Shown here piece by piece: positions 7,751-25,203 of a DNA stretch of 64,000 bases. The DNA comes from an uncultured Hymenobacter sp. Lineage in GTDB: Bacteria; Bacteroidota; Bacteroidia; Cytophagales; Hymenobacteraceae. A program made the translations under genes and the position numbers. The notes beneath the pieces were generated by a model, which saw nothing but the letters and a program-made list of their open reading frames with translations, searched no databases and was not told the origin of the DNA. Where the stretch lies: NCBI GenBank assembly GCA_913778455.1, contig CAJYVK010000374.1, positions 29,280 through 93,279 of the forward strand. Direction: 5' to 3'. Within the stretch, counting starts at the first letter, position 1, and every line of letters starts with the position of its first letter.

Positions 7751-8044
7751 CTACGTGAGGCGAGTCGCCACGGCTCCCTGCCCAACCCACGTGGCGTAAG
7801 CCGCTATTGACAACCGCTCGGCCATAAAATCGCGCATCGAGTACCCCCGTACTTCCAGGCACCAGCGCAAAAAATCGGGTTCCGACTGGGTGGTGGTGAA
7901 GCCCCGCTTCAGCACTTCGGCCCGGCGTACGGGGGATAGTGAAGCCAGCCAGTCGTAGAAATCGGTGGCAGTGAGCGGGAAGTCGGCCGTCTGGGCGTAG
8001 TAGGCCTGGGTGGCGGCGGTAATTTCAGGAAGCAACGAAGACAT
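7751..8044 (-). CDS. Small hypothetical protein
   Basis: ORF with plausible start MSSLLPEITAATQAYYAQ; no recognised family. Confidence 0.55.
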   Translation of the reverse strand: MSSLLPEITAATQAYYAQTADFPLTATDFYDWLASLSPVRRAEVLKRGFTTTQSEPDFLRWCLEVRGYSMRDFMAERLSIAAYATWVGQGAVATRLT

Positions 8045-8178
8045 AGTAGGCTGGCCCGCCCACAATCGGCCGGGCCGCGCAGCCCCATGCCAACCTGGGG
8101 CCAGCCCGCGCAATATGCCGCTATAGCCTTTAAAGCCAGTTTCGGCTGCACCCGCGAGCTGGCGAAATGCACGCGGGC

Positions 8179-8193
8179 CTAGCAAAACGCTAG
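8179..8193. promoter_or_regulatory. Kdp-island motif CTAGCAAAACGCTAG (candidate sigma54 activator site), copy 1
   Basis: Exact 15-mer; bracketed by GCACGCGGG (8169-8177) / CCCGCGTGC (8195-8203); inverted half copy GCGTTTTGCTAG at 8202-8213. Confidence 0.6.
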
Positions 8194-8293
8194 CCCCGCG
8201 TGCGTTTTGCTAGGGATATCTATTGGCGAGAGCGAGTGGATAAATTTCTAACAGTGAGCACCATGATCATCAGGTGAGGAAAACCGTGCGTCG

Positions 8294-8309
8294 TGGCACT
8301 GGCCTTGGT
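8294..8309 (+). promoter_or_regulatory. Candidate sigma54 -24/-12 promoter (imperfect)
   Basis: TGGCAC-TGGCC-TTGGT; GG conserved, -12 GC is GG; about 80-100 bp downstream of motif copies. Confidence 0.35.
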
Positions 8310-8352
8310 AAAAGGGATTTGCCGCCAGCTAGTTGGCGGCAAGTCCCTTTTT
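8310..8352 (+). terminator. Terminator-like hairpin plus T-tract directly upstream of the 8362 start codon
   Basis: AAAGGGATTTGCCGCC-agctagtt-GGCGGCAAGTCCCTTTTTT. Confidence 0.6.
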
Positions 8353-8361
8353 TCTTATTCC

Positions 8362-8712
8362 ATGACTGCCCACGAAACGGCCGACCTGCTCACCCTGGAA
8401 TTTCCGGAGCTGGACGCCGAGCTGCACGCCCCCAGTACGCTGCACAGCGTGTACCGCCAGCTCGATTGCTTCGCCGCCTTCACCCGCCGCGCCCTGAGCG
8501 CCGACCGCCTGGCTCTGCTGCGCCGTTGCTTCGCCGTGGCCGATAGCCTGCTGCGCCACGCCGACCACTACCTCACCCGCGCCATCGAAAACGTGTACCT
8601 CCACGGCCTGCACCTCGACGGCAGCACCGCCCACCTGCACCTGGCCCAGCAGCTCATGCCCCAGGGTCTGTACCGGGCTTACTGCCACCCCCATACCAAC
8701 ATGCTCCCCTAA
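8362..8712 (+). CDS. DUF7674-like small protein
   Basis: MTAHETADLLTLEFPELDAELHAPSTLHSVYRQLDCFAAFTRRAL...ENVYLHGLHLD; sits between regulators and kdp genes. Confidence 0.55.
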   Translation: MTAHETADLLTLEFPELDAELHAPSTLHSVYRQLDCFAAFTRRALSADRLALLRRCFAVADSLLRHADHYLTRAIENVYLHGLHLDGSTAHLHLAQQLMPQGLYRAYCHPHTNMLP

Positions 8713-8745
8713 TGAGCCAGCCGGCTAGCATTCTGCACCGGCCCC

Positions 8746-8760
8746 CTAGCAAAACGCTAC
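8746..8760. promoter_or_regulatory. Kdp-island motif CTAGCAAAACGCTAC, copy 2 (upstream of kdpFABC)
   Basis: 14/15 match to CTAGCAAAACGCTAG. Confidence 0.55.
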
Positions 8761-8883
8761 GCTTGCCCCACGCACTACTACCTGAACACCTACTACTGCT
8801 GAATTATTTATCGTTGTTAGTCAATCAATTACCTCGATAAGCGTCCCTTTGTCCCTTACTAGGGCCAGCCTTTGCTCTATGGC

Positions 8884-8899
8884 TGGCACCCCCGCCGCT
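8884..8899 (+). promoter_or_regulatory. Candidate sigma54 -24/-12 promoter for the kdp operon
   Basis: TGGCAC-CCCCG-CCGCT; GG and GC in correct spacing; about 125 bp downstream of motif copy 2. Confidence 0.45.
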
Positions 8900-8938
8900 G
8901 GCGGCTTTTCTCGCCCTTTTTCTTCCTCATTTGCTCCC

Positions 8939-9034
8939 ATGACTTCCGCGCTGATGATTCCGCTGCTCACGGCCACTGGCCTGGCTGGCTTCTGGCTCTT
9001 CTACAAGTCAGTCGATTTTTTTGATAACATCTAA
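8939..9034 (+). CDS. 31-aa single-TM microprotein upstream of kdpF
   Basis: MTSALMIPLLTATGLAGFWLFYKSVDFFDNI; one hydrophobic helix; first ORF after the candidate promoter. Confidence 0.55.
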   Translation: MTSALMIPLLTATGLAGFWLFYKSVDFFDNI

Positions 9035-9046
9035 CTGCTTCGCGCT

Positions 9047-9127
9047 ATGATGATTGCCCTCTTTGCCTTATCGCTGGCCGTGTTTGGCTACCTCGTGTAC
9101 GTGCTGTTGAAGCCCGAGCGCTTCTAG
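9047..9127 (+). CDS. kdpF: KdpF-like small subunit (26 aa)
   Basis: MMIALFALSLAVFGYLVYVLLKPERF; position directly before kdpA; not in ORF track because of size. Confidence 0.85.
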   Translation: MMIALFALSLAVFGYLVYVLLKPERF

Positions 9128-9154
9128 CCGTTTTTTCTCTTTCGAATTACTGTC

Positions 9155-10855
9155 ATGACTACTGGTTTACTAGGGATTGTTGTCACCTTCGGGCTCACGC
9201 TGCTGCTGGCCCTGCCGCTGGGCCGGTTTCTGGCCAACGTGTTTCAGGGCAACAAGAACGCCCTCGATTTTCTGGCCCCGCTCGAGCGCGGCATTTTCCG
9301 CCTGGCGGGCATCGATGAGAAGCGCGAAATGACCTGGCAGCAGCACATGCTGGCGCTGCTCACCATCAACCTGGTGTGGTTCGTGTTTGCGATGGTCGTG
9401 CTCTGCACCCAGGGTAGCCTGCCGCTCAACCCCGACGGCAACCCCTCGATGTCCCCCGACCTGGCCTTCAACACCAGCATCTCCTTCCTCGTCAACTGCA
9501 ACCTGCAACACTACTCCGGCGAATCGGGCCTGAGCTATCTGTCGCAAATCGTGGTAATTACTTTTCTGCAATTCGTGACCGCCGCCGTCGGCATCGCCGC
9601 CGCCGTGGTCGTCATCAACGCCCTGCAAACCCGCACCACCGACAAGCTGGGCAACTTCTACAACTACTTCGTTAAGAGCATCACCCGCCTGCTGCTGCCC
9701 ATCTCGCTGGTTATCGCCGTCATTCTGGCGTTCAACGGCTCGCCGATGACCATGCACGGCAAGCAGCAGCTGATCACGGTGCAGGGCGACACGACCGCCG
9801 TCTCGCGCGGCCCGGTGGCCGCGATGGTGGCCATCAAGGAGTTGGGCACTAACGGCGGGGGCTTCTACGGGGCCAACTCAGCCCACCCGCTCGAAAACCC
9901 CAACTTCATCACCAACGTGACGGAAAACGTGTCGCTGGTGCTCATTCCGCTGGCCATGATCTTCGCCCTGGGCTTCTACCTCAAGCGCAACCGGCTGGCC
10001 TACATGATATTCGGCGTGATGACGGTGGGCTTCCTGGCCCTGCTGGCCCCCACGGTGTACTACGAAATGCACGGCAACCCCGCCATTGCCCACATGGGCG
10101 CCGACCAGGCCCTGGGCGCGATGGAAGGCAAGGAAATCCGCTTCGGCGCGGCCGCCTCGGCCTACTGGAGCATCACCAATACCATCATCAGCTGCGGCTC
10201 GGTCAACTCGATGCACGACTCGTTCATGCCCATGTCCGGCCTGTGCCAGATGCTGGGCATGATGACCAACGCCTTCTACGGCGGCTGCGGCGTGGGGCTG
10301 CTCAACTTCTTCGCCTATCTCATTATCGCCGTGTTTATTGCCGGGCTGATGGTGGGCCGCACGCCCGAGTTTTTGGGTAAGAAAATCGAGGCTCGCGAGA
10401 TGAAAATCGCCGTCATCGTAACCCTGCTGCACCCGCTGCTCATCCTGGCCGGCACCGCCATGACGGCCCACCTCTACGCCGGCAACCCCACCGAGTACGC
10501 CGGCTGGCTGGCCAACCCCAGCTTCCACGGCTTCAGCGAGATGCTCTACGAGTTCACCTCCTCCTCGGCCAACAACGGCTCGGGCTTCGAGGGCCTCGGC
10601 GACAACACGCCCTGGTGGAACATCTCGACCGGCGTGGTGCTGCTACTCTCGCGCTACCTGCCCATCATCGGCCCGGTAGCCATCGCCGGCCTGCTGGCCC
10701 GCAAGAAAGTGGTGCCCGCCAGCGCCGGTACCCTGCCCGCCGACACTGCCACCTTCGGCGTGATGGTGCTGGCCGTCATCGTGATCATCGCCGCGCTGGC
10801 CTTCTTCCCGGCCCTGGCGCTGGGGCCGCTGGCTGAGCATTTTACAATTTATTGA
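9155..10855 (+). CDS. kdpA: K+-transporting ATPase subunit A
   Basis: CNLQHYSGE, GTNGGGFYGANSAHPLENPN, SANNGSGFEGLGDNTPWWN filter motifs. Confidence 0.97.
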   Translation: MTTGLLGIVVTFGLTLLLALPLGRFLANVFQGNKNALDFLAPLERGIFRLAGIDEKREMTWQQHMLALLTINLVWFVFAMVVLCTQGSLPLNPDGNPSMSPDLAFNTSISFLVNCNLQHYSGESGLSYLSQIVVITFLQFVTAAVGIAAAVVVINALQTRTTDKLGNFYNYFVKSITRLLLPISLVIAVILAFNGSPMTMHGKQQLITVQGDTTAVSRGPVAAMVAIKELGTNGGGFYGANSAHPLENPNFITNVTENVSLVLIPLAMIFALGFYLKRNRLAYMIFGVMTVGFLALLAPTVYYEMHGNPAIAHMGADQALGAMEGKEIRFGAAASAYWSITNTIISCGSVNSMHDSFMPMSGLCQMLGMMTNAFYGGCGVGLLNFFAYLIIAVFIAGLMVGRTPEFLGKKIEAREMKIAVIVTLLHPLLILAGTAMTAHLYAGNPTEYAGWLANPSFHGFSEMLYEFTSSSANNGSGFEGLGDNTPWWNISTGVVLLLSRYLPIIGPVAIAGLLARKKVVPASAGTLPADTATFGVMVLAVIVIIAALAFFPALALGPLAEHFTIY

Positions 10856-10988: not shown

Positions 10989-13037
10989 ATGGCAACCCAA
11001 TCCCAATCCTTATTTCAACCCGCGCTGGTGGCCGAGGCCACCAAGCAAGCGTTCGTCAAGCTCGACCCGCGCATCATGTTCCGCAACCCGGTGATGTTCA
11101 CCGTGGAGCTGGGCACGCTGGTGATGGGTATCGTGACCGCCGCCCAGCTCCTGCGGCCCGATGCCAGCCAGGGCAGCTTCGGCTACAACTTCACGGTATT
11201 CATCGTGCTGTTCCTGACGCTCTTATTTGCCAACTTCGCCGAGGCCATCGCCGAGGCGCGGGGCAAGGCCCAGGCCGACTCGCTGCGCAAAACCCGCCAG
11301 GACACCCCCGCCCGGGTGCGCCTCGACAACGGTAAGTTTGAATCCGTGAGCTCGGCCCAGCTGCAAAAAGGGCAGGTGTTCGTGGTCGAAGCCGGTGAGA
11401 TTATCCCCACCGACGGTGAGATCATCGAGGGCCTGGCTACCATCGACGAGTCGGCCATCACCGGCGAGTCGGCCCCGGTTATCCGCGAGGCCGGCGGCGA
11501 TAAGTCGTCGGTAACGGGCGGTACCAAGGTGCTCTCCGACCGCATTGTGGTGCTGGTGACCACCGCCCCCGGCGAGTCGTTCCTCGACAAGATGATTGCC
11601 CTGGTCGAAGGCGCGGCCCGCCAGAAAACGCCCAACGAGATTGCCCTCACCATCCTGCTGGCGGGCTTTACGCTGGTGTTCGTGATTGTGTGCGTGACCT
11701 TGCAGCCCTTCGCCGAGTACTCCAATACGCCCATCGCCATCTCAGCCTTCATCGCGCTGTTCGTCTGCCTGATTCCGACTACCATCGGCGGGTTGCTCTC
11801 GGCCATCGGCATTGCGGGTATGGACCGCGCCCTACGGGCCAACGTCATCACCAAGAGCGGCAAGGCCGTGGAAACGGCCGGCGACATCGACGTGCTGCTG
11901 CTCGACAAAACCGGCACTATCACCATCGGCAACCGCAAGGCTACGCACTTCTGGCCTGCCCCCGGCGTGAGCGAAGGCGAGCTGATTGAATCGGCCGTGC
12001 TCACCTCGCTGCACGACGAAACCCCCGAAGGCAAGAGCATCGTGGAGCTGGCCCGCGCCAACCGTCGCCTCGACGAAAGCGGCCTGCAAGAGCGCCTGCT
12101 GGGCAGCGAGCCCATCAAGTTCACGGCCGAAACCCGCAGCAGCGGCGTCACCCTGGCCAGCGGCCTGCGCATCCGCAAGGGTGCCTCCGACGCCATCCGC
12201 AACCTGGCCAACGCCGCCGGCCAGACCTTCCCCAACGAGACGACCCAGCGCGTCGCCCACGTATCGAGCAACGGCGGCACGCCGCTAGTGGTGAGCGAAA
12301 ACGACCGTATCCTGGGCGTGGTGGAGTTGCAGGACATTATCAAGCCCGGCATCTCGGAGCGCTTCGAGCGCCTGCGCAAGATGGGCATTAAGACCGTGAT
12401 GGTGACTGGTGACAACCCGCTCACCGCCAAGTTTATCGCCGAGAAAGCCGGCGTCGATGACTTCATCGCCGAAGCCAAGCCGGAGGATAAGATGAAGTAC
12501 ATCCGCGCCGAGCAGCAGGGAGGTAAGCTGGTGGCCATGATGGGTGACGGCACCAACGACGCCCCCGCCCTGGCCCAGGCCGACGTAGGGGTAGCCATGA
12601 ACTCGGGCACCCAGGCCGCCAAGGAAGCCGGCAACATGGTGGACCTCGACAACGACCCCACCAAGCTCATCGAGGTGGTGGAAATCGGCAAGCAGCTGCT
12701 CATGACCCGCGGCACGCTCACCACCTTCTCCATCGCCAACGACGTAGCCAAGTACTTCGCCATCGTGCCGGCCCTGTTCATGGTGGCTATCCCGTCGCTG
12801 GGCGCGCTCAACATCATGGGCCTGAAATCGCCGCAGTCGGCCATCCTCAGCGCCGTGATTTTCAACGCCATCATCATCCCTGCCCTGGTGCCGCTGGCGC
12901 TGAAAGGCGTGGCTTACACGCCCATCGGGGCCTCGGCCCTGCTCCGCCGCAACCTGCTGATTTACGGGCTGGGTGGGGTGATTGTGCCCTTCATCGGCAT
13001 CAAGGCCATCGACCTGCTGGTAGGGCTATTCCTTTGA
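10989..13037 (+). CDS. kdpB: K+-transporting P-type ATPase subunit B
   Basis: [63 protein letters not shown]. Confidence 0.98.
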
Positions 13038-13160: not shown

Positions 13161-13724
13161 ATGAAATCCCATCTCCTGCCCGCCATCCGCCTCACCCTGG
13201 CCCTGCTGGTGCTGTGCTGCGTTATTTACCCCGCCATTGTGTGGGCCGCTGCTCAACTGGCCCCCGGCCACGGCGAGGGCGAACAAATTACCAAAAATGG
13301 CCGCCTGGTGGGCTTTGCCAACGTGGGCCAGAAGTTCGACAAGCCCGAGTATTTCAACTCGCGGCCCTCGGCGGTGGGCTACAAGGCCGACGGCTCGGCC
13401 GGCTCCAACAAAGGCCCCAGCAACCCCGACTACCTGAAGGAAGTACAAGCCCGCCTCGACACCTTCCTGGTGCAGAACCCCAGCGTGCACCGCAACGAGG
13501 TGCCCGCCGAGCTCATCACGGCCAGCGGTTCGGGCCTCGACCCCGACTTGTCGGTGCAGGGCGCCTTGGTGCAGGTGGCCCGCGTGGCCCAGGCCCGCGG
13601 CCTGGCCCCGGCCAAGGTGCAGGCCCTGGTGGCCCAGCACATTCAGTCGGGTACGCTCGGTCCCGACCGCGTCAACGTGCTCAAGCTCAACCTGGCGCTG
13701 GACGACATGACCGGCAAAAAGTAG
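13161..13724 (+). CDS. kdpC: K+-transporting ATPase subunit C
   Basis: FNSRPSAVGYKADGSAGSNKGPSNPDYL, ASGSGLDPDLS. Confidence 0.96.
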   Translation: MKSHLLPAIRLTLALLVLCCVIYPAIVWAAAQLAPGHGEGEQITKNGRLVGFANVGQKFDKPEYFNSRPSAVGYKADGSAGSNKGPSNPDYLKEVQARLDTFLVQNPSVHRNEVPAELITASGSGLDPDLSVQGALVQVARVAQARGLAPAKVQALVAQHIQSGTLGPDRVNVLKLNLALDDMTGKK

Positions 13725-22548: not shown

Positions 22549-23109
22549 CTACCGCAGCGCATCCAGGGCCAGGTTGAGGCGTAGCACGCTCACGTGCGCC
22601 GGCCCCATAAAGCCCAGCCAGGGTTGCTCAATGTGTTGGGTGACCAGTTGTTGCACCCGGGCGGCGGGCAGGTGCCGCGCCCGCGCCACGCGGGCCACCT
22701 GCACGTAGGCCGCCGCCGGCGATAAGTCGGGGTCGATGCCCGAGGCCGAGGCCGTCACTACTTCCGCGGGCACCTGCGCTTTGGCAACGCCGGGATTCTG
22801 GAGCAGAAACGTATCGAGCCGGGCGCGTACCACCGCGTGAAAATCGGGGTTATTCGGCCCCGCGTTCGAGGCCCCCGTGATGGCGGCATTGTAGTCCACG
22901 GCCGACGGCCGCCCCCAGAAGTAGCGCGCCTGGGTAAACTTCTGGCCGATGCGCTCGAAGCCCACCACGCGGCCCCCCGCCACTACCGGCGAGCCCGCCG
23001 CGCGCTGCGGTAGTAGCTGCGCCACGCCCCACAGCAGCCCCGGAAAGCCGAATCCAAATACGAGCAGCAACAGAACACTCACTAAAATCGGCTGCAAAAA
23101 AGATTTCAT
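22549..23109 (-). CDS. kdpC: Second KdpC (kdpC2)
   Basis: YFWGRPSAVDYNAAITGASNAGPNNPDF, ASASGIDPDLSPAAA; full length. Confidence 0.93.
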   Translation of the reverse strand: MKSFLQPILVSVLLLLVFGFGFPGLLWGVAQLLPQRAAGSPVVAGGRVVGFERIGQKFTQARYFWGRPSAVDYNAAITGASNAGPNNPDFHAVVRARLDTFLLQNPGVAKAQVPAEVVTASASGIDPDLSPAAAYVQVARVARARHLPAARVQQLVTQHIEQPWLGFMGPAHVSVLRLNLALDALR

Positions 23110-23205
23110 TGTAAGTAGAAAATTAGTATCTTATAAACAAGATTTAGCTGTTATGCTGAGCGCAGCATGACGACTGTTGTCTTTTTGCCACTGCCTTCGT
23201 ACCGC

Positions 23206-24912
23206 TTACTTCCCCCCGAAATACTCGGCCAGCGGCCCGAGCGTGAGAGCCGGGAAAAACAGCAGCGCCCCCAGAATGCCAATCACCACCAGCAGCAGCA
23301 CGCCAAACGTGAGGCTATCGAGCCGAATGGCCCCCGCGCCCGGCTCGGTGTAGGCTTTGGCCTGCAAGCGGGCGGCGATAAACAAGGCCCCCAGCAGCGG
23401 TACGAACCGTCCGCTGAGCATGGCCAGGCCCGGCACCAGGTTCCAGAACGGCGTATTGTCGCCCAGCGACTCGTAGCCCGAGCCGTTGCCCGCCGCCGCC
23501 GACACAAACTCGTAGAGCATGGCGCTGAAGCCGTGCGCCCCGGGGTTGGGCAGCCACTTGAGGGTGGTGGCCGCGCTGGGCGTGGTAGCCCACACCCAGG
23601 CCGCCAGCGCCGTGCACGCCAGCACCACCACGGGCTGGGCCACGGCCACCAGCGTCGCGGCCTGCATTTCGGGCGCTTCAATCTTCTTACCCAACAGCTC
23701 GGGCGAGCGGCCCACCATGAGGCTGGCCACGAAGGCTGCGATTATCAAGTAGATAAAGAAATTGAGAAAGCCCGTGCCCAGCCCGCCGAAGAAGGCGTCG
23801 ATTTGCATGAGCAACATAAACGGGGCACCCGTCAGCGACGTGAAGCTGTCCTGCGCCCCCACCAGGGTGCCGGCCGGAATGGCCATGTTGAGGGCGTTGT
23901 AATACGCCGTATGAAATACGCCGAAGCGGATTTCCTTGCCTTCGAGGTTGCCCGCCCCGGCGTCGATGCCCAGGGCGCTGAGCACTGGGTTGCCGTGCAG
24001 CTCGGCCAGCACGGCTGGCACCAGCAGCAGGAACAAGCCAGCCGTCATCACTCCAAAAATGAGCAGGGCCAGCCGCATCCGCTTTAAGTAAAAGCCCACC
24101 ATGAACACGAAGGCCATCGGCAAGAGCATCACCAGCAGGTGATGCAGCACGAAGGCGGCAAAATTGGGCGTTTCGAACGGGTGGGCGCAATTAGGGCCGA
24201 AGAATCCCCCGCCATTGGAGCCCAGCTCCTTGATGCTGAGCATGGCCGCCACCGGGCCGCGGGCCACGGTACCGGCCACGCCTTCGAGCGAGGTATAAGT
24301 CCCGGCGCCCTCAAACGTCATGGGTACGCCGGTGAGCAGTAGCCCCACCGAAAAAACAAAGCTTAGCGGTAGCAGCACGAGCAAGCACGAGCGCACCAGG
24401 TCTTGGTAGAAATTGCCCACCGTGGTAAGTTTTTCGGCCCGGCCCAGGGCGCGTACTACCGCCACCCCCACGGCCAGACTGGTGCCAGCGCTCACAAATT
24501 GCAAAAAGGTAAACACCGCCAGCTGAGCGAAATACGAGGCCCCCGTTTCGCCCGAGTAGTGCTGGGCGTTGGTGCTGGTGAGAAAGCTCACGGCCGTGTG
24601 CAACGCCTGCGTCAGCTCCATCGCCGGGATGTGGTCGGGGTTCCAGAACGGCAGCCTGTGCTGCACCAGCAAGATGCCGAGGCCCCAGAGCAGCCACACC
24701 GCATTCACGGCCAACAGGGCCCGCACATACTGGCCCAGCGTCATGGCCTGCGCGGGGTCGAGACCAGCGAGGCGGTAGAAGCCGCGTTCCAGGGGCGTGA
24801 GAAAGTGCAGCCAGGTGCGTTCGCCCGCGTACACGCGGGCCAGGTAGCGGCCCGTGGGCCAGGCTAGCAGAGCCGCCGCCCCGAAAAGCAGCAGCGCAGT
24901 CAATACATTCAT
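23206..24912 (-). CDS. kdpA: Second KdpA (kdpA2); adjacent to kdpC2 with no kdpB between
   Basis: STNAQHYSGE, GSNGGGFFGPNCAHPFETPN, GNGSGYESLGDNTPFWN; start at MNVLTALLLFG. Confidence 0.95.
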   Translation of the reverse strand: MNVLTALLLFGAAALLAWPTGRYLARVYAGERTWLHFLTPLERGFYRLAGLDPAQAMTLGQYVRALLAVNAVWLLWGLGILLVQHRLPFWNPDHIPAMELTQALHTAVSFLTSTNAQHYSGETGASYFAQLAVFTFLQFVSAGTSLAVGVAVVRALGRAEKLTTVGNFYQDLVRSCLLVLLPLSFVFSVGLLLTGVPMTFEGAGTYTSLEGVAGTVARGPVAAMLSIKELGSNGGGFFGPNCAHPFETPNFAAFVLHHLLVMLLPMAFVFMVGFYLKRMRLALLIFGVMTAGLFLLLVPAVLAELHGNPVLSALGIDAGAGNLEGKEIRFGVFHTAYYNALNMAIPAGTLVGAQDSFTSLTGAPFMLLMQIDAFFGGLGTGFLNFFIYLIIAAFVASLMVGRSPELLGKKIEAPEMQAATLVAVAQPVVVLACTALAAWVWATTPSAATTLKWLPNPGAHGFSAMLYEFVSAAAGNGSGYESLGDNTPFWNLVPGLAMLSGRFVPLLGALFIAARLQAKAYTEPGAGAIRLDSLTFGVLLLVVIGILGALLFFPALTLGPLAEYFGGK

Positions 24913-24960
24913 TGCAGCGGGAGCCCGCCTTTTTCGCCGAAGACGGGCGCCCTCGCGGCG

Positions 24961-24976
24961 GCCAACATGGTGCCAA
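24961..24976 (-). promoter_or_regulatory. Candidate sigma54 promoter for kdpA2
   Basis: Minus strand TTGGCAC-CATGT-TGGC; GG and GC in correct spacing; about 50 bp from ATG. Confidence 0.5.
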
Positions 24977-25028: not shown

Positions 25029-25043
25029 CTAGCGTTTTGCTAG
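25029..25043. promoter_or_regulatory. Kdp-island motif, exact copy (CTAGCGTTTTGCTAG); half copy GCAAAACGCTAG at 25053-25064
   Basis: Exact reverse complement of CTAGCAAAACGCTAG. Confidence 0.65.
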
Positions 25044-25168: not shown

Positions 25169-25203
25169 CTAGCAAAACGCATCAGAACCTAGCAAAACGC
25201 TAG
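25169..25203. promoter_or_regulatory. Kdp-island motif, tandem copies CTAGCAAAACGCATC and CTAGCAAAACGCTAG
   Basis: 25169-25183 and 25189-25203, 20-bp spacing. Confidence 0.65.

Follow-up and report, generated by a model that had tools for sequence, protein, structure and literature searches.

A KdpA subfamily with a rewritten inner filter, encoded beside a single KdpB in Hymenobacter and related Bacteroidota

KdpFABC, in which a P-type ATPase is combined with a channel-like subunit, is the textbook chimera of the two. What is the role of a KdpA that is encoded without a KdpB of its own? The question is raised by a 64,000-nucleotide stretch of DNA from an uncultured Hymenobacter (hereafter the window), in which a second kdpA and a second kdpC lie side by side. 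The first-pass annotation described them as full-length minus-strand genes with a gap of 96 bp, and both the coordinates and the family cut-offs agree with that description:

22549..23109, minus strand: kdpC2, a second KdpC of 186 aa, in a KdpC clade distinct from that of KdpC1
23110..23205, minus strand: kdpA2–kdpC2 spacer of 96 bp, without a kdpB remnant
23206..24912, minus strand: kdpA2, a second KdpA of 568 aa, with its ATG start at 24912

The kdpA2 frame contains no internal stops and is open further upstream, to 25182, with homology beginning only at the ATG. KdpA2 scores 486.3 bits against TIGR00680 (curated cut-off 387.7) and 606.9 against PF03814 (E 3e-182), which places it in the KdpA family. 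KdpC2 likewise exceeds the KdpC cut-offs (172.3 versus 152.55 for TIGR00681; 195.4 versus 178 for NF001454). No similarity to kdpB was found in the 96-bp spacer, and no KdpF gene adjoins kdpA2; KdpA2 does not share a gene set with a KdpB and KdpF of its own, as the KdpA of KdpFABC does. The corresponding spacers of the nearest relative, G107 (L124:2272–2470), and of Hymenobacter caeli (L120:11552–11765) contain palindromic insertions of ~100 bp, which are probably small mobile repeats.

The pair is part of a large potassium island (window positions 443–26901) that also includes kdpFABC, two Kup transporters, a Na+/H+ antiporter, a BBP2 porin, a short KdpD-like sensor without the kinase part, three histidine kinases and two sigma-54-type response regulators. 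A riboswitch search of the window returned no Rfam family at the gathering threshold. Within the island, kdpB is positioned between kdpA1 and kdpC1:

9047..9127, plus strand: kdpF-like open reading frame of 26 aa with one hydrophobic stretch, assigned by size, position and hydrophobicity
9155..10855, plus strand: kdpA1, with the standard filter NCN/TNG/SCG/NNG and N370, assigned by family profiles
10989..13037, plus strand: kdpB, the sole copy in the genome, with TGES, DKTGT and GDGTNDAPA motifs present
13161..13724, plus strand: kdpC1, assigned by family profile

The absence of a second kdpB from the window, as first annotated, extends to the whole genome (5.41 Mb in 403 contigs, ~91% complete). 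A genome-wide search identified two KdpA, two KdpC and a single KdpB above the curated cut-off (1012.7 bits), with the next P-type ATPases at ≤204 bits.

We looked for relatives by scanning 85,488 species genomes and by searching whole genomes. KdpA2 is found in 4 of 120 genomes of the window's genus (G000, G107, G078 and G011, which is H. caeli). In all four, kdpC2 adjoins kdpA2 with no kdpB between them, so the adjacency is conserved in every Hymenobacter carrier. A KdpA2 profile, which in the Spirosoma and Mucilaginibacter families scores KdpA2 above 880 bits and ordinary KdpA below 745 bits, identified carriers in 9 of 223 and 3 of 251 genomes of these families, respectively. One further carrier emerged from a phylum sample (G1185, score 827) and belongs to a different family of the same class. 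Since many carriers are cultured isolates, they are not an assembly artefact.

KdpB is present in every kdpA2 genome examined. Exactly one copy is found in 15 of the 17 kdpA2 genomes searched whole, a count to which G1185 does not belong; these include the four Hymenobacter, Spirosoma and other Spirosomataceae, Mucilaginibacter, and the near-one-contig assemblies G926 and G916. In Dyadobacter arcticus and Mucilaginibacter lappiensis there are two KdpB, each of which adjoins its own KdpA1, and G1185 carries an ordinary A1-B-C set elsewhere in its genome. Because KdpB is either single or paired with its own KdpA1, KdpA2 is without its own KdpB in all of these genomes. We observed no convincing KdpB changes that track the presence of KdpA2; the only signals came from gappy columns and from a single C-terminal position with a lineage-like pattern.

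The linkage of kdpA2 varies. In Mucilaginibacter frigoritolerans and G1185 the gene is solo and unlinked to kdp. An open reading frame of 136 aa without a Pfam match lies 24 bp downstream of the M. frigoritolerans gene (the two are at L225:7440–7850 and 7875–9581) and is a possible new partner. Spirosoma G474 has only three pieces of kdpA2, in the same operon place between kdpC and the porin gene; this remnant (L154:7866–8468) covers residues ~1–35, 105–154 and the C-terminus, and is a kdpA2 lost by deletion. The patchy distribution of KdpA2, together with the G474 remnant, points to repeated loss, and transfer has perhaps contributed as well.

KdpA2 differs from every other KdpA in its selectivity filter, described here in E. 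coli KdpA numbering by alignment to the E. coli protein. The first residue is changed in all four filter loops (N112S, T230S, S343P and N466G), as is C344 (C344A), and G144S and K415Q occur alongside. At position 370 in the vestibule, KdpA2 has Asp where E. coli has Glu and nearly all Bacteroidota KdpA1 have Asn; residue 169 is Asp in both KdpA2 and E. coli. All 18 distinct KdpA2 carry the signature STN/SNG/PAG/GNG plus D370, and none of 194 other KdpA does. Five of the 18 (L163, L194, L197, L199 and L228) were found after the signature was fixed and lie outside the set from which it was derived. The canonical inner filter (N-T/C-N, T-N-G, S-x-G, N-N-G) is absent from all 18, and the outer filter (Q116, N231, G232, G345, N467 and G468) is unchanged, as is R493. 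The filter motifs had initially been called intact; this is accurate for the Gly/Asn framework, but N112, T230, S343, C344 and N466 are all substituted. From the alignment and from the general organisation of K+ channel filters, we take the changed positions to be its inner end, on the S4/vestibule side.

In E. coli KdpA, Glu370 is located at the tunnel entrance, where its charge sets the apparent K+ affinity, and selectivity resides in the KdpA filter, KdpB being relatively promiscuous (PMC12629597). With KdpA G232D, KdpB pumps NH4+ and Rb+; Q116R and E370 variants, like G232D, have altered affinity and selectivity with KdpB still pumping (PMC12629597). Those mutants are laboratory-made, whereas KdpA2 is a natural, conserved filter variant that differs at other positions.

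In a tree with ~200 other KdpA, mostly from Bacteroidota and Ignavibacteria, KdpA2 is monophyletic with support 1.0 and a long stem. The clade comprises 18 sequences from Hymenobacter, Spirosomataceae, Mucilaginibacter and one more family. Judged from these sequences, KdpA2 is an old paralogue and not a set of recent or stray duplicates. The Hymenobacter KdpC2 sequences also form their own clade (support 0.999), the deeper placement of which is weak; a recent origin of KdpC2 by copying of KdpC1 was considered and rejected because of this separate clade.

E. coli KdpA (KdpFABC; TIGR00680, PF03814; PDB 6hra and 5mrw) is a full-length homologue of KdpA2. An AlphaFold2 model of KdpA2 (pTM 0.76) has the KdpA fold, with top PDB matches that are KdpA (TM 0.82–0.83; 0.83 to 7nnp_A), and is poor at the filter loops (pLDDT <50 at residues 114–122, 231–240, 342–378 and 476–485). 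KdpA2 resembles the KdpFABC subunit in this predicted fold, in the Gly/Asn filter framework and in Q116, R400 and R493. It differs from E. coli KdpA in its filter (STN/SNG/PAG/GNG versus NTN/TNG/SCG/NNG) and in having neither its own KdpB nor an adjacent KdpF. KdpA2 is best described as a new KdpA subfamily, which belongs to the family by profile and fold and departs from it in lacking the canonical filter and a KdpB of its own.

Is KdpA2 still equipped to meet a KdpB? Contact sites in KdpA were taken from the published structures (PMC6255902). Every KdpA2 checked keeps R400, R493, Q116, N231, G232, N467 and G468, and L541 is kept in all but one, which has Met. Other contact positions are conservative (Tyr/Phe at 386, Ile/Leu at 389, Val for Leu at 422), and the coupling helix keeps its GRxPE end. 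The features by which we judged KdpB contact, namely R400, the coupling helix and L541, are thus found in KdpA2. Variability at the contact sites is similar in KdpA2 and KdpA1 (mean percentile 0.52 versus 0.53, at equal set size and a mean identity of 0.59), a weak comparison given that the sites are few and moderately conserved in any KdpA. Among these few aligned sites we saw no sign of relaxed constraint in KdpA2. At its cytoplasmic end, the coupling helix is somewhat more variable in KdpA2 (entropy 0.66) than in KdpA1 (0.41).

The gene is also under purifying selection. When the window is compared with G107, Nei–Gojobori dN/dS is 0.08 (kdpA2) and 0.09 (kdpA1); over the four Hymenobacter the ranges are 0.08–0.31 and 0.09–0.43, respectively. 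No frameshifts or stops were seen in kdpA2 of these four genomes. The simple decay that the first-pass annotation had kept in view is refuted by these whole reading frames and by the selection acting on them.

A shared upstream motif, putatively regulatory, connects the two kdpA genes. The 12-mer GCGTTTTGCTAG, the Kdp box, was first spotted upstream of kdpA2 and occurs seven times in the genome as an exact match. Three of these copies precede kdpA2, three fall in the 1.06 kb before kdpF–kdpA1 and one is elsewhere. The six copies near kdpA genes are as follows:

8179..8190, minus strand: Kdp box GCGTTTTGCTAG, upstream of kdpF–kdpA1
8202..8213, plus strand: Kdp box GCGTTTTGCTAG, upstream of kdpF–kdpA1
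8746..8757, minus strand: Kdp box GCGTTTTGCTAG, upstream of kdpF–kdpA1
25032..25043, plus strand: Kdp box GCGTTTTGCTAG, upstream of kdpA2
25169..25180, minus strand: Kdp box GCGTTTTGCTAG, upstream of kdpA2
25189..25200, minus strand: Kdp box GCGTTTTGCTAG, upstream of kdpA2, 20 bp from the preceding copy

With the kdpA2-region copies excluded, the chance of three of the four remaining copies landing upstream of kdpA1 is ~3e-11. In G078 both regions have a variant, GCGTTTCGCTAG: three copies precede kdpA1, and one sits 165 bp upstream of the porin gene that comes before kdpA2. Across 359 kb of Hymenobacter kdp loci, GCGTTTYGCTAG occurs 30 times (27 non-redundant), in every case no more than 1.7 kb upstream of a kdpA. 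Such zones make up 18% of the bases. The boxes are often paired ~20 bp apart. The sigma-54-type response regulators beside the locus are candidates for the protein that binds them. A small open reading frame with DUF7674 (8368–8712) is located between two of the boxes upstream of kdpF, and its DNA is conserved in G107.

Gene order links kdpA2 to the pump genes in other ways. In Spirosoma it lies within an operon, A1-B-C-A2-porin-D, and in H. caeli a single 1.2-kb region separates the divergently oriented kdpA1 and kdpA2. A sigma-54-like −24/−12 site, TGGCACCATGTTGGC, at 24955–24969, ~60 bp upstream of kdpA2, scores in the 99th percentile. We rejected it as a kdpA2 promoter because the essential GC is GT in G107, and because neither kdpA1 nor the other kdpA2 genes have a conserved site of this kind upstream.

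The original annotation offered two readings, in which KdpA2 and KdpC2 share the single KdpB or KdpA2 is an SKT-type channel that operates without a pump. KdpB is indeed single, and both readings overlooked that KdpA2 is an old clade with an altered filter and vestibule. On the comparative evidence, we consider it somewhat probable that KdpA2 serves as an alternative ion-selecting subunit, accompanied by KdpC2 in Hymenobacter, and replaces KdpA1 on a shared KdpB. Sharing is favoured because of the A1-B-C-A2 operons of Spirosoma, the Kdp box held in common with kdpFABC and the retained KdpB-contact residues. Counted against it are the lack of KdpF beside kdpA2, the two solo kdpA2 genes, the small number and moderate conservation of the contact sites compared, the somewhat more variable coupling helix and the absence of a tracking change in KdpB. 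KdpA2 would be made or induced together with KdpFABC and would dock on the KdpB motor in the place of KdpA1, in Hymenobacter with KdpC2 as its partner. The resulting second form of the pump, with its rebuilt inner filter and vestibule, would differ in affinity, selectivity or throughput. For KdpA2 we infer physical exchange on KdpB, function as part of a pump and the way in which transport would change. More tentative is a fuller version, in which one motor has two exchangeable filters under a common regulator, KdpA1 serving K+ and KdpA2 another K+ range or NH4+, Rb+ or Cs+.

The main rival, which we regard as unlikely, is that KdpA2 works free of a motor: it would be an SKT-superfamily channel or secondary transporter of the KtrB or TrkH type, and KdpC2, in genomes that have it, would be an extracytoplasmic accessory. 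The unlinked kdpA2 of two genomes and the missing KdpF would suit such a protein; the solo genes fit sharing in trans as well as a motor-free channel. KtrB and TrkH have a distantly similar fold with four pore loops, and the KdpA2 model matches them weakly (TM ~0.4); however, no KtrA- or TrkA-type partner is seen beside kdpA2. The universal presence of KdpB in the genomes examined also argues against this rival, as does retention of R400 and the GRxPE helix end, which meet the KdpB P domain. In published KdpA structures, moreover, the direct cytoplasmic pore is sealed (PMC6255902).

Quite improbable is a modulatory role, in which KdpA2, with or without KdpC2, competes for KdpB, forms poorly active complexes and so limits pumping once K+ returns. 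KdpA2 is expected to have its regulator and motor in common with KdpA1, which would suit this role, as would the concerted replacement of five inner-filter positions. A mere decoy would not need so strict a filter signature, however, and KdpA2 retains the whole outer filter and R493; the vestibule residue is acidic, and an acidic residue there aids K+ entry in E. coli.

That kdpA2–kdpC2 is a decaying remnant of a second kdpABC operon is largely refuted: G474 indicates that the gene can be lost, but in the four Hymenobacter kdpA2 is complete and evolves under purifying selection, its signature is invariant across families, the gap to kdpC2 has no trace of kdpB, and in Spirosoma kdpA2 follows kdpC of the sole operon, so a second kdpB is not implied. 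The window's genome is fragmented and incomplete, but a second kdpB missing from its assembly is very improbable: KdpB is likewise single in the near relative G107, which is 99% complete, and in the nearly closed genomes G926 and G916.

Second complete kdp operons exist in some bacteria, such as kdp1 and kdp2 of Anabaena, in which each KdpA has its own KdpB. The KdpA2 genomes are similar in having more than one KdpA and differ in that kdpB is not duplicated on the KdpA2 side. We found no description of a KdpB-less KdpA clade, or of genes named kdpA1 and kdpA2, in a search of open-access papers. The arrangement suggests that one pump motor can take two different ion filters. A KdpA clade with a rewritten inner filter beside a single KdpB provides a ready test of the idea of a generic motor with an interchangeable filter, and KdpA2 is a natural experiment on which filter positions determine K+ affinity and selectivity.
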